A stretch of 64,000 nucleotides of DNA from Corallococcus macrosporus DSM 14697 (lineage in GTDB: Bacteria; Myxococcota; Myxococcia; Myxococcales; Myxococcaceae), in contig NZ_CP022203.1 in assembly GCF_002305895.1 (NCBI RefSeq), positions 4,442,501 through 4,506,500 on the forward strand, given 5' to 3'. Every line of letters starts with the position of its first letter. Positions within the stretch are counted from its first letter, which is position 1. This document shows, piece after piece, positions 49,748 to 64,000 of this stretch. The notes beneath the pieces are model-generated. The model did not search any database. It was not told the DNA's origin and saw only the letters and a program-made list of their open reading frames with translations. The position numbers were made by a program, and so were the translations under genes.

Positions 49748-51021
49748 GCCAGAAGGTCGCGGGCGTCAAGGGCATGAATGATCTCCTCCCGGGGGAGATC
49801 GAGATCTGGCAGCACGTGGAGGGCGTGACGCGCGAGCTGTTCGGCCGCTTCGGCTACGGCGAGGTCCGCACGCCCATGGTGGAGAACACCGCGCTGTTCG
49901 TGCGCAGCGTGGGCGAGGAGACGGACATCGTCGGGAAGGAGATGTACACCTTCAACGACAAGGCGGACCGCAGCCTGTCCCTGCGCCCGGAGGGCACCGC
50001 GCCCGCCGCGCGCGCGTACATCGAGCACTCCATCGCCACCCAGGAGCCGCTCACCCGCTGGTTCTACATGGGGCCCATGTTCCGCTACGAGCGGATGCAG
50101 ACGGGCCGCTACCGCCAGTTCTATCAAATCGGCGCGGAGGCCTACGGCGCGAAGGAGGCCGCCCAGGACGTCGAGATGATGGACATGGTGGTGCAGTTCC
50201 TGGAGCGGCTGGGGCTCAAGGACATCACCCTGAACGTCAACTCGCTGGGAGACGAGGCCTGCCGGCCCGAGTACCACGCGAAGCTGGTGGCCTACCTCCA
50301 GGCCCACCGCGAGGAGCTGTGCGGGGACTGCCAGAAGCGCATGGAGAACAACCCCCTGCGCGTCCTGGACTGCAAGAACGAGAAGTGCCAGGGCATCGCC
50401 GCGGCGGGCCCCAACGTCCTGGAGACCCTGTGCGAGCCCTGCCGCGCGCACTTCGACGACGTGCAGCGGAAGCTGACGGCGCTGGGCATCCGGCACGTGG
50501 TGAATCCGCGCATGGTGCGCGGGCTGGACTACTACACGCGCACCGTCTTCGAGTTCATCGCCGCGCACCCCGTCCTGGGCACCGGCAGCACCGTGGGCGG
50601 CGGTGGCCGCTACGACAAGCTGGTGAAGAGCCTGGGCGGGCCGGACACGCCCGCGGTGGGCTTCGCCTGTGGGCTGGACCGGCTGGTGCTGCTGCTCAAG
50701 GAGAGCGGGCAGCAGTTCGCCGTCCGTCCGGACGTCTTCGTCGCGGTGGCGGATCCGGGCTCGCATGACGCCGGCCTGGGGCTGGCCAGCCGGCTGCGCC
50801 GCGAGGGCCTCCGCGTGGAGTTCGACACCCGCGGCGGCAGCCTCAAGAGCCAGATGAAGCGCGCGGACAAGAGCAGCGCGGACTTCACCCTGGTGCTGGG
50901 CGAGGCCGAGCGCACCAGCGGCCAGGCGAAGCTGAAGCCCATGGCCGGAGGGGAGCCCATCCCCGTGTCATTGGACGAGGTCGCGCAGACCGTGCGGGCC
51001 CGGAAGGCCGCTGCCTCCTAG
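49744..51021 (+). CDS. hisS: Histidyl-tRNA synthetase
   Basis: 425 aa from a GTG that overlaps the psd stop. Class II synthetase motifs are clear: KGMNDLLPGE at the start, motif 2 TRWFYMGPMFRYERMQTGRYRQFYQIGAE, the histidine-specific GLDYYTRTVFEF, and motif 3 GFACGLDRLVLLL. A C-terminal anticodon-binding domain completes the protein. It charges tRNA-His. It is followed by the regulatory stretch before the S24/S26 peptidase gene. Confidence 0.97.
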   Translation: MSQKVAGVKGMNDLLPGEIEIWQHVEGVTRELFGRFGYGEVRTPMVENTALFVRSVGEETDIVGKEMYTFNDKADRSLSLRPEGTAPAARAYIEHSIATQEPLTRWFYMGPMFRYERMQTGRYRQFYQIGAEAYGAKEAAQDVEMMDMVVQFLERLGLKDITLNVNSLGDEACRPEYHAKLVAYLQAHREELCGDCQKRMENNPLRVLDCKNEKCQGIAAAGPNVLETLCEPCRAHFDDVQRKLTALGIRHVVNPRMVRGLDYYTRTVFEFIAAHPVLGTGSTVGGGGRYDKLVKSLGGPDTPAVGFACGLDRLVLLLKESGQQFAVRPDVFVAVADPGSHDAGLGLASRLRREGLRVEFDTRGGSLKSQMKRADKSSADFTLVLGEAERTSGQAKLKPMAGGEPIPVSLDEVAQTVRARKAAAS

Positions 51022-51166: not shown

Positions 51167-51574
51167 ATGCCGCCCAATACTTCCGTCCAGGCTGTGCCTC
51201 CGGACCTGCGCTGGATCCCCGTCCAGGGGGACAGCATGTGGCCTTCCTTGCGCTCGGGCGACCACGCGGGGGTGGAGCCGCTGGAGGGAATGCCACGGCC
51301 CGGTGACGTCCTGCTGGCCCGCTTCGATCACGCCCTGGTGCTGCACCGGCTGCGGCGGTGGGAGCCCGGCGCGGTGGCGCTGCGCGGGGACAACGCGGCC
51401 CACGAGGATCCGCCGCTGCCCGCGTCGCGCGTGCTGGGACGCGTGCGCCGGATCCGCCGCGGGGGTGTGGTCCTGGAGTCGGGCTGGGACGTGGGCCCCC
51501 GGTGGCTGGGGCGGCTGCGGGTGGCCGTGAAGTGGCGCCTGGCCGCGCTGCTGGGCCGGCGAGGTGGACGATGA
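51167..51574 (+). CDS. S24/S26-family peptidase-like protein
   Basis: 135 aa. The motif VQGDSMWPSLRSGDH contains the catalytic Ser23 of signal peptidase-type S24/S26 proteases. H60 in LVLHRL stands where ER-type (SipW-like) signal peptidases use His in place of Lys, and RGDN follows. No N-terminal anchor is visible; the C-terminal end (WLGRLRVAVKWRLAALLG) may attach to the membrane. It is the first of seven closely overlapped genes and could process a peptide (inference). Confidence 0.75.
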   Translation: MPPNTSVQAVPPDLRWIPVQGDSMWPSLRSGDHAGVEPLEGMPRPGDVLLARFDHALVLHRLRRWEPGAVALRGDNAAHEDPPLPASRVLGRVRRIRRGGVVLESGWDVGPRWLGRLRVAVKWRLAALLGRRGGR

Positions 51575-51867
51575 GCCCGCCTTTCGCCGCGGACCATGCG
51601 CCGCGCTGGCGCGAGGGCGTCTCCGGGCAGCCCTTCGGGGCGGACTACATCATCCTGGACGCCGAGGGCCGCACCCTGCGCGGGCTCAACGGGACGGCGA
51701 TTGAAATCTGGAAGTTGTGTGACGGGACGCGCACCGCGCGGGCCCTGGTGGAGCAGGTGGCTCAGCGCCGCGGCTGGGACGTGGAGCAGGTGCTGACGGA
51801 CACGCTCAAGTTCCTCACGGACCTGGCGCGGCTTGGGCTCATCGACGAGCTCGAGGAGGCACGGTGA
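51571..51867 (+). CDS. PqqD-like RiPP recognition element protein
   Basis: 98 aa, a PqqD-type winged-helix domain by itself: ADYIILDAEGRTLRGLNGTAIEIWKLCDGTRTARALVEQV, with the N-x-A-x-x-I-W signature and the following helices. PqqD proteins bind leader peptides of ribosomally made, modified peptides and present them to enzymes. It overlaps the upstream peptidase gene (ATGA), and precedes the lipoprotein with a GTGA overlap. That a PqqD protein sits in an operon with a small peptide and a kinase supports a peptide-modification role. Confidence 0.85.
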   Translation: MSPPFAADHAPRWREGVSGQPFGADYIILDAEGRTLRGLNGTAIEIWKLCDGTRTARALVEQVAQRRGWDVEQVLTDTLKFLTDLARLGLIDELEEAR

Positions 51868-52412
51868 TGCGGACCCGCATGGCGTTGCTGGCGGCGGCGG
51901 TGTTGCTGGCCTCGTGTACGGAGGGCGTGGCGCCGTATGCCCCTGGGAATGGGCCCCCGGCGCAGGGCGAGGAGCCGCTGCCGCCCACGGACGTGCTGCC
52001 TCCGCGCGAGGGCTCGGGGGCCACGCCGCCTCCCGCGCCGGTGGACGAACCCGGACCGGAGCCGGAGGTGCCTCCGCCGGCGGTGGGGCCTCGGGGCTCG
52101 GCGTCCGTCGTCGGCCTGGGTGCCGGCGACCGGGGGCTTCTGTCGGTGGAGCAGGTGGACGTCGACGTGACGGTGAGCGGCGTGCGCGGCCGGCACCGGG
52201 TGTCGGTGGAGTTCGTTCCGCCTTCCGGCCTGCCGTATGAGCGCCGCTCCGCGGAAGTGGAGGCCCGCGTGGACGAGACGCGCACGGTGCGCTTCTCGCT
52301 GCCCGTGGCCGGTACCGCCGTGGCGACGTCCGGCATGAGCGGGACGTGGCAGGCCCGGTTCTTTCTTGATGGGGCGCCGCTGACGGCGGCGTCCTTCACC
52401 CTGGATCCATGA
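51864..52412 (+). CDS. Putative lipoprotein
   Basis: 182 aa. The signal with lipobox (MALLAAAVLLASC, Cys18) is followed by a Pro-rich region and a C-terminal beta domain (VSGVRGRHRVSVEFVPPSGLPYE). No family recognised. The GTG start overlaps the PqqD gene and its stop overlaps the next gene by 4 bases, so it is translationally coupled in the operon. Likely a lipid-anchored envelope component that works with the large secreted protein next to it. Confidence 0.7.
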   Translation: MMRTRMALLAAAVLLASCTEGVAPYAPGNGPPAQGEEPLPPTDVLPPREGSGATPPPAPVDEPGPEPEVPPPAVGPRGSASVVGLGAGDRGLLSVEQVDVDVTVSGVRGRHRVSVEFVPPSGLPYERRSAEVEARVDETRTVRFSLPVAGTAVATSGMSGTWQARFFLDGAPLTAASFTLDP

Positions 52413-55400
52413 GGGCTCTTTTCATGCGTCCCTTTTCCGCGCCCCTCGTCGCCGCCGCGCTCCTGGTGCCCTCGCTGGGGTGGGCGCAGTCGCTGTTCCC
52501 GACCTCCGTCCTGACCACGCAGCCGCAGGGTGGGGACACCCGCGCGCGGGTGGTGATGGACGAGGCCTCCGAGCTGACCGTCGACGTGCGCAACGACACC
52601 TTCAGTTGGTCGCCGTGGTTCCGGCGCATCAACGAGGTGTGGTTCGAGCTGCCCTCGGGCTACATCCCGCTCGCGTCCATCCCGCCGCCGGGGTGGACGG
52701 TGGACTACATCGCCAGCGAGCGATGGATCATCTTCTACAACCAGGACCCCTGCAACGGGAGTGGGGACTACGGCCTGGGGCAGAACGACACGGCGCGCTT
52801 CATCCTCCGCGTGGTGCCGCCGACGTCGAACAGCGACCAGAACACCGAGCGCTTCGTGTCGGGGCAGACGCAGGCGCGCGACACCTGCATGGGTGGTGAC
52901 TTCTCCACGTCGGTGACGGGGTCGAGCGCGAGCTGGATCCGCTCCGGCCTCTACACCCAGGTGGACGTGCGGCCCCGGGTGATGGGGGTGGGCGGCGACG
53001 TCGATGCCCGGATGGTGGTGGAGAACCGCGCCGGCGCGAACCAGAACAACACGACGATTGAAGGGCCCTCCACGGGCGCGGGCGCCGTCACCTTTCAGGT
53101 GGTGGACACCGAGCCTGCGTCGTTCAGGCGCAACATCCGCCGCGGCGAGGCGGGCGTCTATTCCGCGCTGGCGCGGACGGGCTCGGCTGGGACGCTGGTG
53201 GCCCAGGTGCGGGGCGTCAGCGGGAACGGGAACACCGTGTCGCCCGTCGTGGACACGCAGATGGTCAACGTGGGCGCGCTGCCCGTGGCCGTGGACGTGG
53301 ACACCGAGGACGCGTTCAACAACGAGACGGTGCGCGTGCGCCTCACCGTGACGAACCCGTCGTCGACGGACACGTTCCTGGACGTGACGCCGCGCGCGCC
53401 CGTGTTCGAGGGCTCGGCGGCCGCGTCGCTGGTGTCGGGGCCCGGGCCCGTGAGCGTTCCCCGGTTGGATCCGGGCGCCTCCGCGCACTTCGTGTGGACG
53501 TACCAGGTGTCGGGGTCGCAGTTCGCGGACTACCGGTTCCGGGGGCAGGTGGATGCCACGCGCAACGGCGCGTCGGTGACGTCGAGCCTGGTGGAGTCGA
53601 ACCGGGGGCGCATCGTGCAGCACCGCGTGCGCACGAACATCAGCGCGGTGGCCGCCAACTCCACGAACCGCTCCATCATCTACACCATCCAGAACCGGGG
53701 CCCCATGCCGCTGCATGAGGTGACGCTGCTGCGGCCCGCGCTCAACTACTTCGACATCGCGGGCGCGATGGGGACGCCCACCGGCTGGCGCCTGGCGGCC
53801 AACAACACCCGGGGCCTCACCTGGGAGTCCACGAACGCCACCGGCATCCCGGTCAACGGCGAGCGCTCCTTCACGGTGGTGTACTCCGACTTCGGGGCGG
53901 GGGCGTCGCTGTCCGGGCCCACCACGTTCCGGCACCGCTTCCACCTCATCGACGACTACGGCGGACCGCAGATTCGCGTCGAAACCCCCGTGACGCTGGT
54001 GCAGGGCACCGTGCCCGAGGTGAACCGCCTCACGGCCGTGGCCCGCGACGGCCGCGTGACGCTGACGTGGGACAACCCGACGGTGCACGGGGGCGTGCTG
54101 GTGCTCCGCTCGGAGGAGGCGCCGCCGAACCTCGCCCCCACGCAGGGGTTGACCTACGGCGTGGGCGCGGCCCTGGGCAATGCCCAGGTGGTGTACGCGG
54201 ACGACGTTGGCGCCACCACGACGTTCACCGACACGGCCGTCTCCAACGGCACCACGTACTACTACCGCGTCTTCAATTCGGATGACGTGCGTTGGTACTC
54301 GCCGGGCAACCAGCCCACGTCGGAGGGCCTGGTGGCCACGCCCCAGGCCCGCCTGGCCGGGGCGCCGCTGTGGTGCTACTCCGTGGGCCTGAGCGCCCTG
54401 CAGCAGCCCATCACCGAGCTGGGCACGGGCATCTTCAGCGCCTACAACGACTCCGTCGTCGCCAACCTCACCCAGGTCACCAACCCCGCGCAGGACGGCG
54501 CCGAGCGCTGGCGGCCGCGCCCCCTGTCGGGCCTCATCGGCAGCCGCTTCCCGGTGGTGCCGCTGCACGGCCTGTCCGGGCAGTACATCCTCGTGGGTGA
54601 CCAGGGTGGGGTGGCCAGCGCGCTCCACGCCGCCACCGGCCAGGTGCTGTGGCGCTGGGACAACGGCGGCCAGCCCATTGGCACCATCCAGTCGTTCCCC
54701 GTCACGCAGCTCTACGACTACGCGAACGCGGCGTACCGCGCCGCGCACCCCAACCGGGACCTCGTCTTCTTCGCCACGCGGCTGGCGGACGCGTCGCGCA
54801 ACCGGGTGGTGGCCCTGAATGCCGCCACCGGCGCGCTGGTGTGGACCTACCAGCCCGGCGACCTGGGCATGGTCGCCGGCGGCATGGTGGTGGACTACAC
54901 CCAGAACCGGCTCTTCGTGGCGACGCGCGCGCACGCGGGCTCGCCGAACACGCTGCGCGTGCTGGACTCGCTCACGGGCCAGCAGGTGGGCGCGCTCCCG
55001 GTGGGCGACGTCGAGCTGAGCCTGGTGCGCAACGCGTACAGCAACCTCATCCTGGTGACGGACAGTGACGGCCTGGTCCACGGCGTTGACGGGGCCACGG
55101 CGCAGCTCGCCTGGAGCCTGCCCGTCACCACGCGCCCGGCGCCCAATACGCCCGCCTTCACCAGCTTCGTGCGGCCCCAGGGCACGGGCTTCGTGGCCAG
55201 CCTCGCGGCCGGGCAGGTGGCGCTGTACGACGTGAGCGGCCCGGCCCAGTCGCCGCCGGTGCTGCGGTGGAGCACGCCGATTGAGTCTCCCTCCGGGACC
55301 TTCTCCTTCAATCGGAATGGGGTGGCGCGCCTCTACGTTGGCAGCTCCGACGGGCAGGTCCATCAGTTGGAGCTGCTGGATGGCACCGACTCCGCCCAGG

Positions 55401-55516
55401 TCTCGATTGGCGGCGCTCAGCGAATCGGGACGCCCACCATCGACCACACCGTGAGCCGCCTCCACGTGGGCTCGGAAGACGGCCGCATCTGCGCCTTCCC
55501 CGTTCCCTTCCAGTGA
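52409..55516 (+). CDS. Large secreted protein with FN3 and PQQ-like beta-propeller regions
   Basis: 1035 aa. Signal peptide (LVAAALLVPSLGWAQS). Residues about 30-500 are several Ig-like beta domains with aromatic and charged faces. One FN3 domain lies around 540-620 (VNRLTAVARDGRVTLTWDNP to YYYRVFNSDD). The rest, about 650-1035, has repeats typical of PQQ-like beta-propellers, such as SALHAATGQVLWRWDNGG, ALNAATGALVWTY, VLDSLTGQQV and GVDGATAQLAW. It should be exported and could bind a ligand or modify a surface product. It is the largest gene of the overlapped operon. Confidence 0.85.
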   Translation: MRALFMRPFSAPLVAAALLVPSLGWAQSLFPTSVLTTQPQGGDTRARVVMDEASELTVDVRNDTFSWSPWFRRINEVWFELPSGYIPLASIPPPGWTVDYIASERWIIFYNQDPCNGSGDYGLGQNDTARFILRVVPPTSNSDQNTERFVSGQTQARDTCMGGDFSTSVTGSSASWIRSGLYTQVDVRPRVMGVGGDVDARMVVENRAGANQNNTTIEGPSTGAGAVTFQVVDTEPASFRRNIRRGEAGVYSALARTGSAGTLVAQVRGVSGNGNTVSPVVDTQMVNVGALPVAVDVDTEDAFNNETVRVRLTVTNPSSTDTFLDVTPRAPVFEGSAAASLVSGPGPVSVPRLDPGASAHFVWTYQVSGSQFADYRFRGQVDATRNGASVTSSLVESNRGRIVQHRVRTNISAVAANSTNRSIIYTIQNRGPMPLHEVTLLRPALNYFDIAGAMGTPTGWRLAANNTRGLTWESTNATGIPVNGERSFTVVYSDFGAGASLSGPTTFRHRFHLIDDYGGPQIRVETPVTLVQGTVPEVNRLTAVARDGRVTLTWDNPTVHGGVLVLRSEEAPPNLAPTQGLTYGVGAALGNAQVVYADDVGATTTFTDTAVSNGTTYYYRVFNSDDVRWYSPGNQPTSEGLVATPQARLAGAPLWCYSVGLSALQQPITELGTGIFSAYNDSVVANLTQVTNPAQDGAERWRPRPLSGLIGSRFPVVPLHGLSGQYILVGDQGGVASALHAATGQVLWRWDNGGQPIGTIQSFPVTQLYDYANAAYRAAHPNRDLVFFATRLADASRNRVVALNAATGALVWTYQPGDLGMVAGGMVVDYTQNRLFVATRAHAGSPNTLRVLDSLTGQQVGALPVGDVELSLVRNAYSNLILVTDSDGLVHGVDGATAQLAWSLPVTTRPAPNTPAFTSFVRPQGTGFVASLAAGQVALYDVSGPAQSPPVLRWSTPIESPSGTFSFNRNGVARLYVGSSDGQVHQLELLDGTDSAQVSIGGAQRIGTPTIDHTVSRLHVGSEDGRICAFPVPFQ

Positions 55517-55695
55517 AGCACGTCCTCTCCTCCTCGCTCGTACGCCCTATGACCTCGGACGACTTCCAGACGACGCCCCCTCCCGACGAGGCCCGTGCCT
55601 ATGAGGCTCCGGCCATCCTGTGGGAGCAGCCCTTCGTGGCGCTGGCGCAGATCTCCCAGTGCCAAATCCCCGGTGAGTCGGAGTGCATCCCCTGA
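55513..55695 (+). CDS. Small Cys-containing peptide, candidate RiPP precursor
   Basis: 60 aa from a GTG overlapping the previous stop; an ATG 12 codons in would give 48 aa. The sequence divides into a leader-like half with the motif YEAPAILWEQPF at 30-41 and a short C-terminal end containing two Cys (C50, C58), Ser48 and Ser56 (AQISQCQIPGESECIP). This is the organisation of many peptide precursors recognised by PqqD/RRE proteins: conserved aromatic leader, variable Cys/Ser-containing core. It sits between the propeller gene and the HprK-like kinase. No modification has been shown; the assignment is inference from context. Confidence 0.65.
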   Translation: MKHVLSSSLVRPMTSDDFQTTPPPDEARAYEAPAILWEQPFVALAQISQCQIPGESECIP

Positions 55696-56534
55696 GCCTC
55701 CCGCCGGAGGGCCCCGCGCAGGACGCGGGGCTCTGCCTGTGCATCGCCGGTTGGACAAGCATGGTGGAAGTCGCCGAGGCGGGCCTGCGAGACTCGCTCC
55801 GGCGCATGTTCTCCCGGTTCGTGGTGTCCCATCCTGTTGAGGGCGGCGAGGTGGCCCGGCTCGTGGCCGTGGGCCCCGCCGTGGTCCGCCCCGCTCCGGA
55901 CATCCGTGCGCTGCCCCGAATCCTGCGTGCCCCGGACGGCTCGCTGAGCCTGGCGGGCGAGGACTACGACGCGACGCTGTCCGCCGACGGCCTCCAGGCC
56001 CGCGTGGAGGGGCGGGGGCGCTTCCCCGTGGAGACGGTGCTGAAGGTCATGCTCGCCCGGGCGCTGGCCCGGCGCGGGGGCCTGCTGGTGCACGGCGTGG
56101 CGGTGGCGCACCAGGGCCGGGCCGCGCTCTTCACGGGGCCGTCGGGCGCGGGGAAGAGCACGCTCGGGGCCTTGTGGGCCCAGGCGGGCGGCGAGGTGCT
56201 GTCCGATGAGCTGGTCGCCGTGTGGCCGGCGCCGGGCGGTGGCTGGCGCGCGGCGGGGACGCCGTGGAACGTGGGGCTCGCGGCCGAGGCCCGCTTGAGC
56301 GCCGTGGGCACGCTGGCGTGGGAGGGCGTGTCCCGGTGGGAGGCCCAGGCCGCGGGGGAGGTGGGGCGGATGCTGCTGCTCAATGCCTTGTTGCCCGAGG
56401 CGACCCCGGCGGGGCGCGGCGGCCTGCTCGCGGCGGCGGGGCGGGTGCTGTCGGACGTCACTCCGGTGCGGCTGGTGTTCGCGCGGGATGCGTCCGCGGC
56501 GGCGGTGATTCAGGGAGCGCTGGCGCATGGGTGA
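55683..56534 (+). CDS. HprK-like P-loop kinase
   Basis: 283 aa from a GTG that overlaps the peptide gene by 13 bases. The Walker A motif GPSGAGKST lies at about 152-159 (GRAALFTGPSGAGKSTLG), followed by EVLSDELVAVW, as in HPr kinase/phosphorylase-related proteins (serine kinase of RiPP and exopolysaccharide loci). The first 100 residues vary and contain no membrane helix. Related kinases phosphorylate a Ser on a small protein or lasso peptide (family knowledge), so the small peptide next door is a natural candidate substrate. Overlaps miaA by 8 bases. Confidence 0.75.
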   Translation: MHPLSLPPEGPAQDAGLCLCIAGWTSMVEVAEAGLRDSLRRMFSRFVVSHPVEGGEVARLVAVGPAVVRPAPDIRALPRILRAPDGSLSLAGEDYDATLSADGLQARVEGRGRFPVETVLKVMLARALARRGGLLVHGVAVAHQGRAALFTGPSGAGKSTLGALWAQAGGEVLSDELVAVWPAPGGGWRAAGTPWNVGLAAEARLSAVGTLAWEGVSRWEAQAAGEVGRMLLLNALLPEATPAGRGGLLAAAGRVLSDVTPVRLVFARDASAAAVIQGALAHG

Positions 56535-61042: not shown

Positions 61043-61999
61043 TCAGTGCCGCTGCGCCGGAGGCGAACTCGCGGGCCTGCCGAAGACGACGACCCGGTCC
61101 CGCCCCTCGCGCTTCGCCTCGTAGAGGGCCGCGTCCGCCGCCTTCATCAGCGACTCCGTGTCCTCGCGAGGCCCTTCGAAGGTATGGTCGGCGATGCCCA
61201 CGCTCACGCTCAGTCCGAAGGGGGCGGGGCGGCCGTCGCTCTTCTGCACGCCGACGGCGCGCAGCCCGCTGCGGATGCGCTCGGCGAAGACGGCTGCCTC
61301 CATCGCCGTCTGGTGCGGCAGCAGCGCGACGAACTCGTCGCCGCCGAAGCGGGCCGCGAAGTCGGACTCGCGCAGCTCGTTCTTCAGTTGGGCGGCCAGC
61401 GCGAGGATGGCCCGGTTGCCCACGTCATGGCCCATGCCGTCGTTGATGGCCTTGAGGTGGTCCAGGTCGATGATGACGACGCTCAGCGGGTACTGGTAGC
61501 GCTGGGCCCGGCGGAACTCCTCGTCCATCCGGATGGTCAGCGCCCGGAAGTTGGCCAGCCCCGTGAGGCCGTCCGTCTGCGCCAATACCTGCAGCCGGCG
61601 CTGCTGCTCGCTCGTGCGCAGCGCCCGGTCAATGCGCGCCAGCAGCTCCCGCGCGCTGGCCGGCTTGTGGATGAAGTCCACGGCGCCCATCTCCAGGCAG
61701 CGCTCCAGGGTGGCCTCGTCCGCGTCGCCCGTGAGGAAGATGACGGGCAGGGCCTCCGTGCGCGGCTCGCGCTGGAGCAGCTCCAGCACCGCGAGCCCGT
61801 CCCCGCCGGGAAGGAACCTGTCCAGGAGGATGAGGTCGGGGCGGTGCTCCCGCGCCAGCTCCAGCCCCTCGTCCGAGTCCGGGGCGGCCAGGACGTCGAA
61901 GCGCGCGGCGAGCAGGTCCACGAGGCTCTCGCGGACCTGTGCGTCATCCTCGATGATGAGCAGAAGGGACCGCTCCGAGGTCCGGCCGCGCCGTTCCAT
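61043..61999 (-). CDS. Receiver-GGDEF diguanylate cyclase
   Basis: 318 aa from the ATG at 61999; the frame remains open far upstream but only this part has family similarity. The receiver domain (1-125) has E17/D18, D60 (LILLDRFLPG), T90 and K112. The GGDEF domain has TDGLTGLANFRAL and RFGGDEF at 219-223, with an RESD I-site five residues before. PleD/WspR-like: phosphorylation should activate c-di-GMP synthesis. It reads towards the FAD-receiver gene, 48 bases upstream of that gene's start, and may share its transcript. Confidence 0.93.
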   Translation of the reverse strand: MERRGRTSERSLLLIIEDDAQVRESLVDLLAARFDVLAAPDSDEGLELAREHRPDLILLDRFLPGGDGLAVLELLQREPRTEALPVIFLTGDADEATLERCLEMGAVDFIHKPASARELLARIDRALRTSEQQRRLQVLAQTDGLTGLANFRALTIRMDEEFRRAQRYQYPLSVVIIDLDHLKAINDGMGHDVGNRAILALAAQLKNELRESDFAARFGGDEFVALLPHQTAMEAAVFAERIRSGLRAVGVQKSDGRPAPFGLSVSVGIADHTFEGPREDTESLMKAADAALYEAKREGRDRVVVFGRPASSPPAQRH

Positions 62000-62397
62000 G
62001 CACCACTCCGCTTCACTCGGCTGCTGCGAAATGGCAGGCCGAAAGTCTCGGGTGCCACGCCCTGTCGTGTGCTCCCAACGCCCCTGCGCCCCACGCGCAT
62101 CCGCCGCCGCCCGGTCCTGCAAGCACACCCCAACGCCCACAACCTTCACCCGAGACCTCCGGCTGCCAAGCCTGTCAGGCTCCGCGAGACGGGGCCTTTC
62201 CCCGTATCCGTGAGCACGGTGCGGGAGCAAGCAGCATGCCCTTCGGTGGGGGAGGGCAGTCAGAGTGTTTCCGGGCGGTTGCGCACCCTTCGCGTCACCC
62301 TGTTGTACAGGGTCGGAAGACGTTGCAGCGCGCCGAGGGGCGAGGCGGTAGATATTCCCGTGCGAGGGCGGACGCTCGCGGGCCGCGCGACGGGGGG
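62000..62397. other. Non-coding gap upstream of the receiver-GGDEF gene
   Basis: About 400 bases between two minus-strand genes. The promoter of the receiver-GGDEF gene must lie in the first 150 bases, but no element is clear. No small gene, repeat or hairpin was convincing. Confidence 0.35.
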
Positions 62398-63141
62398 CTA
62401 GCGTCGGGTGTTGAACTGCATGCGGCGGCCACCCATGGGCGGCATGACCGGCGGCGGCGCCTCGAGCCCGAACTGCCACCACATGGGCTCGTACGGCTTC
62501 ATCTTCAGCCGCTTGTCGTTCTGGAGCTGCGCCAGGCTGCCCTTGAGCTTCTCGTCCTTGGGGTTCTCCTCCACGCCCCGGGCGAGCACGCGCAGCGCGC
62601 CTTCCTTGTCCTTGTTCTGCAGCAGGCACCAGGCATAGGCCGCCCAGACGATGGACTCCTTCTTGCCGCTCTTGGTGGCGGACTCGAACGCCTTCTTCAT
62701 GGCGTCGAAGTCCTTGCGCTGGAAGTACAGGGCGCCCTCCATGGCCTTGGCCATGTAGTTGCGGGTGCTGCCCTTGGCGAAGGCGGCCTTGGCGCCCTCG
62801 TGGTCCTTCACCATGTACTTCAACATGCCGATCTGCGAGTGCAGCTCCGGACCGACCAGGAACTGCCACTTGTCGTAGACCAGCCCCTGCTCCAGCGTCT
62901 TCACGGCCCGGTCCACCCGCGCCTGGGCGTCCTTCTGGCTGGAGGGCTGGGACTGGAGATCCTTCTGGACCACCGTCATCAGGGCCTGGACGCGGCTGGC
63001 CACCCTGCGGGCGAGCACGACGTAGGCGCCAACGAGGGCCAGGATTCCGGGGACGAGCCCTGCCCAGATGGAGAAGCCGGCGACCTTCACGAGGAGCGCG
63101 ACGGCGATTCCCACACCGAGGGAGATGAGAAGGTTGTACAT
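62398..63141 (-). CDS. Membrane-anchored TPR-like protein
   Basis: 247 aa. Two hydrophobic helices (LLISLGVGIAVALLVKVAGF and SIWAGLVPGILALVGAYVVLA) anchor the N-terminus. The rest is helical with TPR-like spacing (HEGAKAAFAKGSTRNYMAKAMEGALYFQRKDFDAMKKAFESA, KDKEGALRVLARGVEENPKDEKLKGSLAQL). The end (WWQFGLEAPPPVMPPMGGRRMQF) is Pro/Met-rich. Probably a scaffold at the inner membrane; partners are unknown. Divergent from the tRNA gene. Confidence 0.82.
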   Translation of the reverse strand: MYNLLISLGVGIAVALLVKVAGFSIWAGLVPGILALVGAYVVLARRVASRVQALMTVVQKDLQSQPSSQKDAQARVDRAVKTLEQGLVYDKWQFLVGPELHSQIGMLKYMVKDHEGAKAAFAKGSTRNYMAKAMEGALYFQRKDFDAMKKAFESATKSGKKESIVWAAYAWCLLQNKDKEGALRVLARGVEENPKDEKLKGSLAQLQNDKRLKMKPYEPMWWQFGLEAPPPVMPPMGGRRMQFNTRR

Positions 63142-63237
63142 GGGGGGCCCCTCTTAGCGATGTGCGTGGACCACCGCAATCTTCGGATGCACTTGGCATC
63201 AACTCGCGGTATACGTCTGCCCGTCGCGACAGCAGGG

Positions 63238-63323
63238 GGCCCTCTGTCGAAATTGGTAGACGAGGCGGACTCAAAATCCGCTGCGGCTGACCCCGCGTCC
63301 CGGTTCGAGTCCGGGGAGGGCCA
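63238..63323 (+). tRNA. tRNA-Leu (CAA)
   Basis: 86-nt tRNA. Acceptor stem GGCCCTC pairs with GAGGGCC, with discriminator A; D-arm region AATTGGTAGAC, anticodon loop CTCAAAA (anticodon CAA, decodes UUG), long variable arm GCGG-CTGAC-CCCGC typical of Leu, and T-arm CCCGG-TTCGAGT-CCGGG. The 3' CCA is not encoded. It lies between the TPR gene and the response regulator. Confidence 0.95.
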
Positions 63324-63334
63324 TATCCGAAGGG

Positions 63335-63377
63335 CAGGACCGGCGAGGTCGTCTTGCGCTGGACGCGCCCGGTCCTG
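63335..63377 (+). other. Inverted repeat downstream of the tRNA
   Basis: CAGGACCGG at 63335-63343 pairs perfectly with CCGGTCCTG at 63369-63377 over 25 bases, 12 bases after the tRNA. There is no T run; it may be a terminator, an RNA processing signal or an operator for the next gene. Confidence 0.35.
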
Positions 63378-63424
63378 ATAAAGGACAGGCTCCAGCAGGT
63401 AGGGGCGGCGGAGGTCCCCCGGTA

Positions 63425-64000
63425 ATGAGGGTGTTGCTGGTCGAGGACGACGCGAGCCTTCGGGAAGGCATGGGCGAGCTCATCTCCGAGCTGGCGGAGG
63501 TCCATGCGGTCAGCACCGGAGAGGATGCCGTCGCCGCGCTCCAGGCGGAGCGTTTCGTCCTGGTCATCACCGACCTGCGCATCTCGGGCGGTGAGCAGGG
63601 AGGCCGCACCGTCGTGGAGGCGGCGCGCCAGCGTCAGCAGCCGGTGGCGGTGGTCAGCGCGGCGACGCCGGAGGAGGTCACCCAGGCCGTCCTGCCCCAC
63701 GTGGCGGACGCCATCCTCCTCAAGCCCTTCCAGATCGACGACATCGTCGCGCTGGTCGAGCGCTTCATCGCGCTGCGTCAGGACGTGGAGCGTCTGGCCA
63801 CCCAGGGGGGCCGCCCGCCCGCGAGCGCCTGGTCGTCTCAAGGCACCCATGTGCGGCTCGCGCGCGAGCCCGAGCCGCCCACGGTGTGGGTGTCCTTGAC
63901 GGCCGGGGCGGACGTTGACTGGACGTTCCACCCCACGTCCGAGGGCGCGGGCGTCCAGGTGGTCGGAGGCTCCCTGCAGGTGGAGGGCGTGACGTACGCC
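63425..64000 (+). CDS. Response regulator (3' truncated by window)
   Basis: 192 codons to the window end, still open. The ATG at 63425 follows GGAGG. The receiver domain has E7/D8/D9 at the start, D50 (VLVITDLRISGG) and K100 (AILLKPF), intact. From about 130 a linker (RPPASAWSSQGTHVRLAREPEPPTV) leads to an unidentified domain (VWVSLTAGADVDWTFHP and later) that is not a known DNA-binding or GGDEF module as far as seen. No sensor gene is in the window. Confidence 0.85.
   Translation, partial: MRVLLVEDDASLREGMGELISELAEVHAVSTGEDAVAALQAERFVLVITDLRISGGEQGGRTVVEAARQRQQPVAVVSAATPEEVTQAVLPHVADAILLKPFQIDDIVALVERFIALRQDVERLATQGGRPPASAWSSQGTHVRLAREPEPPTVWVSLTAGADVDWTFHPTSEGAGVQVVGGSLQVEGVTYA

Follow-up and report, generated by a model that had tools for sequence, protein, structure and literature searches.

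The 64,000-nucleotide stretch of Corallococcus macrosporus DSM 14697 analysed here (NZ_CP022203.1, positions 4,442,501 to 4,506,500; "the window") contains six consecutive genes, examined as a candidate pathway for a ribosomally synthesized and post-translationally modified peptide (RiPP). They encode an S24/S26 peptidase, a PqqD-family RiPP recognition element (RRE), a lipoprotein, a secreted protein with FN3 and propeller domains, a 60-aa peptide and an HprK-like kinase (Table 1). The source genome is a single contig of 8.97 Mb, with the cassette at 4.49 Mb, and the locus has its named near relatives in Myxococcus species. Inspection of the open reading frames (ORFs) confirmed the serial overlaps of 4–13 bases reported by a first-pass annotation of the sequence (4, 4, 4, 4 and 13 bases). 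The second one (PqqD/lipoprotein) shrinks to 1 base if the ATG start is used, and the 13-base peptide/kinase overlap depends on the uncertain GTG start of the kinase. The chain continues into miaA, which overlaps the kinase gene by 8 bases. Upstream, hisS ends at 51021, leaving a gap of 145 bases to the S24 gene. No sigma-70 promoter-like sites or terminators above chance were found in the operon region, and no Rfam families were found in the window.

Table 1. Features of the cassette and its downstream neighbour (window coordinates; LppA and LppS belong to the Paenibacillus system discussed below)
Feature	Position	Strand	Evidence
S24/S26-type serine peptidase, signal-peptidase-like, candidate leader peptidase (LppS-like)	51167–51574	+	Pfam S24 1.5e-11
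Discrete PqqD-family RRE	51571–51867	+	Pfam PqqD 7.1e-15
Lipoprotein: lipobox LLASC (by eye), proline-rich linker, C-terminal beta domain	51864 (GTG) or 51867 (ATG)–52412	+	
FN3/propeller secreted protein, 1035 aa: signal peptide (by eye), Ig/FN3-like beta domains, C-terminal BamB-like propeller	52409–55516	+	
Precursor peptide, 60 aa	55513 (GTG)–55695	+	ORF, homologue profile, conservation
Predicted RRE-binding leader motif Y30-E-A-P33-A-I35-L36 (YxxPx[LVI]L)	55600–55620	+	Invariant residues, published motif
Predicted core Q46-ISQCQIPGESECI-P60, after A45/Q46 cut	55648–55692	+	Register with LppA (Y-16, T-1, S3), conservation
Ser48, predicted phospho-acceptor, core position 3	55654–55656	+	+18 from Tyr, like LppA S3
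HprK-like kinase, start codon uncertain	55683 (GTG)–56534	+	AF2, Foldseek, invariant residues
Kinase P-loop GPSGAGKS (G152–S159)	56136–56159	+	Sequence, conservation
miaA	56527–57450		ORF, downstream of kinase gene

By comparative sequence analysis, the 60-aa frame is a genuine peptide gene under purifying selection. A profile built from 20 homologues was searched against 195 Myxococcota genomes (threshold E ≤ 0.01) and found the peptide in 56 of them: 54 from the family of C. macrosporus itself and two from other families. Where it occurs, the partner genes nearly always lie beside it, and the HprK-like kinase was found in essentially all peptide-bearing genomes, the exception being a fragmented assembly (G087). 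The first-pass annotation had pointed to relatives that keep the other genes without the peptide as the case that would speak against it; peptide and partners were found to co-occur, and the idea survives. The two Cys and two Ser it placed in the C-terminal part are there (S48, C50, S56 and C58). The N-terminal half of the peptide is freely variable, while Y30–P60 is nearly fixed. Among 42 unique close sequences, Y30, P33 and I35 are invariant and position 48 is Ser in 41. The median ratio of nonsynonymous to synonymous substitution rates (dN/dS) was 0.23 over the C-terminal 31 codons (833 pairs from the 42 unique sequences), and 0.19–0.41 over all 60 codons when the window peptide was compared with its nearest relatives. 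Values >1 for two distant full-length pairs (L072 and L010) stem from ungapped comparison of the variable N-terminal halves and are hence meaningless. Moreover, roughly half of the sampled loci have the start of the peptide overlapping the stop of the FN3 gene (ATGA, GTGA or TTGA), and in most of the others the two lie within a few codons of each other. The occurrence in 56 genomes, the low dN/dS and the stop/start coupling mean that the peptide is not a chance frame, and the reading as a spurious ORF was rejected on the phylum-wide conservation and the dN/dS. No Pfam or NCBIfam family matched it. In the fragmented genome G087, two separate lipoprotein–propeller–peptide triplets (L082 and L083) were seen, and the kinase was not found in the assembly.

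In 23 sampled loci, drawn from five genera, all six genes were present in the same order, and most of these cassettes lie between hisS and miaA. Myxococcus xanthus has the locus (L039), and the predicted core of its peptide is of the QISQCNIPGESECIP type. Every examined genome of Myxococcus/Pyxidicoccus and Corallococcus has kept the cassette, in most cases next to hisS and miaA, and the lipoprotein and the 1035-aa secreted protein accompany it in Myxococcaceae loci. In most Myxococcus, Corallococcus and Pyxidicoccus loci, the six genes fill the hisS–miaA interval. In the g3 genomes, miaA is 2–3 kb more distant or outside the stretch; as the cassette is intact there, the unit runs from S24 to the kinase. 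The synteny of the myxobacterial loci points to vertical descent of the cassette. In one genome (G051; L079 and L148), the S24, PqqD and peptide genes are grouped, the kinase is on a different contig, and the propeller gene was not seen.

Of the labels given to the proteins in the first pass, Pfam supports S24, PqqD and the propeller, and the fold of the kinase supports HprK-like. The S24 protein weakly matches the Ni-SOD maturation protease and archaeal-type signal peptidase I. Its Ser23, His60, Asp75 and Asp81 were each found in 24 of 24 orthologues, and no membrane segment was obvious in it. The PqqD protein is the only PqqD match in the genome and is therefore probably dedicated to this cassette. 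Synthesis of a PQQ-like cofactor was rejected: the cassette has no PqqE-type radical SAM gene, and the PqqD score is under the cut-off of the PQQ model. The lipoprotein matched no Pfam or NCBIfam family. The 1035-aa protein matched Pfam PQQ_2 (9.1e-14), and its AlphaFold2 (AF2) model (pLDDT 86) consists of beta-sandwich domains and a propeller that Foldseek matched to BamB (3q7m, E 4.6e-15, TMt 0.75). BamB is a lipoprotein of BAM, whereas the propeller in the window belongs to a larger secreted protein with Ig/FN3 arms. The earlier suggestion that the lipoprotein and the propeller protein are displayed at the envelope is plausible.

At the sequence level, the kinase gives a poor match (TIGR04352, HprK-related kinase A: 2.8e-7, 30 bits against a curated cut-off of 200). 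Its AF2 model (pLDDT 92) matched HprK/P and PEPCK in Foldseek with a probability of 1.00. The invariant positions include H137, SGxGKS, D175–E176 and GTPW. H137, G152, G155, G157, K158, S159 and D175 are spaced exactly like H148–D186 of BsfK, a kinase proven to phosphorylate a precursor peptide with the help of an RRE (PMC10368454). The Bsf/paeninodin phosphorylated lasso peptides to which BsfK belongs share the HprK-like kinase and the discrete RRE acting on a YxxPxL precursor (PMC10368454). They differ in that the window has no macrolactam cyclase or B2 protease, and in the distance from Tyr to Ser, which is +18 in the window peptide and +19 in BsfA.

The closest parallel in working is the linear polyphosphorylated peptides (LPP) of Paenibacillus alginolyticus, encoded by lppAKBSDN and published in Nat Commun in May 2026 (PMC13381572). 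Hence, the scheme that the first-pass annotation took to be undescribed has in principle been described. In LPP, LppS is a signal-peptidase-like protease homologous to SipW, LppB a discrete RRE and LppK an HprK-like kinase, and the precursor LppA carries the motif YxxPxVLxHQxIxFETxxS. In the core, Ser3 is the residue phosphorylated by LppK; LppS cleaves after T-1, assisted by LppB (PMC13381572). Each of these components has a counterpart in the window. The protease, of archaeal signal-peptidase type with Ser, His and Asp, corresponds to the S24 gene with its invariant S23, H60, D75 and D81; the kinase corresponds in fold and conserved motif. The RRE leader motif [Y/W]xxPx[L/V/I/A/F/Y] (PMC13381572) is matched by Y30–I35, and among PDB entries the window RRE matches LppB itself best (9x8z, E 0.0073), with PqqD and lasso RREs ranking lower. 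LppB fixes the leader Tyr motif through N33, D70 and F74, with D70 hydrogen-bonding the Tyr (PMC13381572). In the window RRE, N40 (28 of 28 orthologues), D77 (27 of 28) and F81 (28 of 28) are conserved, as are L85 and L90; the equivalents of LppB L32, N33, D70, F74, M78 and L83 are kept in 27–28 of 28, with Leu in place of M78.

The peptide fits the LPP motif in part. No gap is needed to align Y30EAPAILWEQPFVALAQIS48 with it; the identical residues are Y, P, L, Q and S, I/V and F/I are conservative, and the Tyr–Ser spacing of +18 is the same as in LppA. In the register of LppA, a cut between A45 and Q46 and a phosphosite at Ser48 are predicted; the small residues at -3 and -1 would suit signal peptidases. 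The peptide profile gave only a chance match when compared with PDB sequences and did not reach the LppA leader.

Several points weigh against reading the operon in this way. The H, F-3, E-2 and T-1 of the LPP leader are not retained in the window peptide. The aligned Ser column is Val in L080 and Thr in L084. The Asp spacing of the protease differs from that of LppS, and its catalytic Asp could be D75 or D81. The second acidic residue of the kinase, the one departure from the BsfK pattern, is Glu (E176, invariant) instead of Asp187. Some kinase loci in other genera have no such peptide. Neither an NTP-transferase (LppN) nor an MsbA-like exporter (LppD) was found among the six genes or the scanned flanking genes. 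Two NTP_transf_5 (PF14907) genes, which we take to be of the family of LppN, scored above the cut-off at 1.283 and 1.296 Mb (L143 and L144), ~3.2 Mb from the cassette. They are possible unlinked partners.

The likeness to LPP comprises a leader protease, a discrete RRE, an HprK-like kinase, a YxxP leader, the +18 spacing and the lack of a cyclase. Despite this similar working, the cassette was not assigned to LPP, since it lacks two defining genes and its peptide retains only part of the motif. In addition, the myxobacterial core is short, near-invariant and contains two Cys, and a lipoprotein and a BamB-like propeller protein are constant companions. LPP was described as restricted to Bacillota, with a patchy and transfer-rich history (PMC13381572), whereas the myxobacterial cassette is syntenic. 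It looks like a new, strongly conserved variant resembling LPP in Myxococcota.

A second lineage of kinase cassettes comprises PqqD, a giant secreted FG-GAP/Ig protein of 1.6–2.0 thousand residues, a YxPPxVRSE...S...C peptide, an HprK-like kinase and S24 (L085, L102–L108, L110, L150, L151, L153, L154, L163, L166 and L176–L179). The S24 gene follows the kinase, and in some of these loci it is fused to a GNAT (acetyltransferase) domain. Of 46 Myxococcota loci with HprK-like kinases, 18 contain, next to the kinase, a strict YxxP motif followed by Ser/Thr at +18 or +19, compared with none of 1172 control windows; the looser motif was found in 26 of the 46 and in 3.6% of controls. The first-pass annotation had noted no radical SAM gene nearby. 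This stands for the window cassette, and fails for some distant versions: a radical SAM gene adjoins the kinase in five loci (L086, L109, L147, L158 and L173), which links the group to SynChlorMet-like cassettes. Judging from the model names, the latter presumably share the pairing of an HprK-like (ScmC) with a PqqD-like (ScmD) protein. The window genes differ from SynChlorMet and HPr-rel-A/B (NCBIfam TIGR04248-51, TIGR04352/53/55) in scoring far under the cut-offs and in lacking radical SAM. Nothing was found in the open-licence literature on HPr-rel-A, SynChlorMet or PqqD with FG-GAP, and a paper on the myxobacterial form may exist.

We therefore read the operon as encoding a RiPP pathway that yields a short linear phosphopeptide, together with a secreted partner, with a probability of roughly two in three. 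The PqqD/RRE would bind the leader at Y30xxP33xI35, and the HprK-like kinase would phosphorylate Ser48, possibly repeatedly. The RRE would then present the end of the leader to the S24/S26 protease, with cleavage at or near Ala45/Gln46. The product would be a core of ~15 residues with pSer at position 3 and two Cys, for which a disulfide is possible after export. More speculatively, the core may be exported by an unlinked transporter and may act with the lipoprotein and the BamB-like propeller protein, e.g. as a ligand or cofactor. The scheme is built on gene order, conservation, homology, fold, conserved residues and register; from these we infer modification, cleavage, export and function.

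The first-pass annotation had suggested phosphorylation and proteolysis as the sole modifications. The same chemistry was shown for LPP in Bacillota, and for the window peptide itself it is a prediction. The final product might instead be further modified by an NTP-transferase or by glycosyl or oxidative enzymes whose genes lie outside the window, which would make the window a partial pathway. We consider this rather unlikely, though it is the most credible of the alternatives. The two NTP_transf_5 genes and the radical SAM genes beside the kinase in the five loci speak for it, as does LPP itself, whose authors did not find the final product and suspected further modification (PMC13381572). 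Against it, the C. macrosporus genome yielded no close relative of the radical SAM protein of L086 (in a search without a positive control), and the six genes leave no room in most hisS–miaA intervals.

An intracellular phospho-regulator, i.e. an HPr-like switch that controls the protease or the envelope genes and yields no exported product, is improbable. The core is near-invariant, which is unusual among antibiotic-like RiPPs, HprK is classically regulatory and the locus is kept beside hisS and miaA. However, the RRE, leader architecture and protease favour a cleaved product, and the two conserved Cys fit an extracytoplasmic peptide. Still less likely is that the S24/S26 protein is a dedicated signal peptidase for the propeller protein, comparable to SipW and biofilm matrix proteins, and that the peptide, RRE and kinase are a regulatory unit of their own. 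An S26-like protease is indeed co-encoded with two exported proteins, and its counterpart LppS is a SipW homologue. But no membrane segment was seen, the lipoprotein would need signal peptidase II, S24, PqqD and the peptide occur without FN3 in L079, and in the FG-GAP lineage the S24 gene comes after that of the kinase. A lasso pathway with cyclase and B2 protease acting from elsewhere was rejected as very improbable: YxxPxI leaders, RREs and HprK-like kinases also occur in lasso clusters (PMC10368454) and Asn_synthase (PF00733) genes exist in the genome, but only at 0.38, 3.2 and 4.96 Mb with none near the cassette, and B2 (PF13471) was not above the cut-off anywhere. A lasso ring also needs an acidic residue at positions 7–9, where the predicted core, whose first residue is Gln, has none.

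Elsewhere in the window, a long minus-strand ORF (61043–63931) has a low third-position GC (0.71) and overlaps other ORFs; it is probably no gene.

The linear phosphopeptide reading would extend the just-described chemistry from Bacillota to Myxococcota, where it is conserved instead of patchy. That the core and the propeller partner are fixed and that the locus sits among housekeeping genes speaks against a warfare peptide and for a role at the envelope, be it structural, in signalling or as a cofactor. The near-invariant core and its fixed link to a secreted propeller protein suggest a basic physiological role. A bolder version, which we regard as tentative and somewhat against the odds, is a Myxococcota-wide RiPP-like class whose RRE, HprK-like kinase and signal-peptidase-like protease would make a near-invariant phosphopeptide. 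This would be no free natural product, serving instead as a dedicated ligand, cofactor or structural piece of the co-encoded giant secreted beta-propeller (BamB-like or FG-GAP). With the locus present in the genetically tractable Myxococcus xanthus, the function of a phosphorylated RiPP becomes testable.

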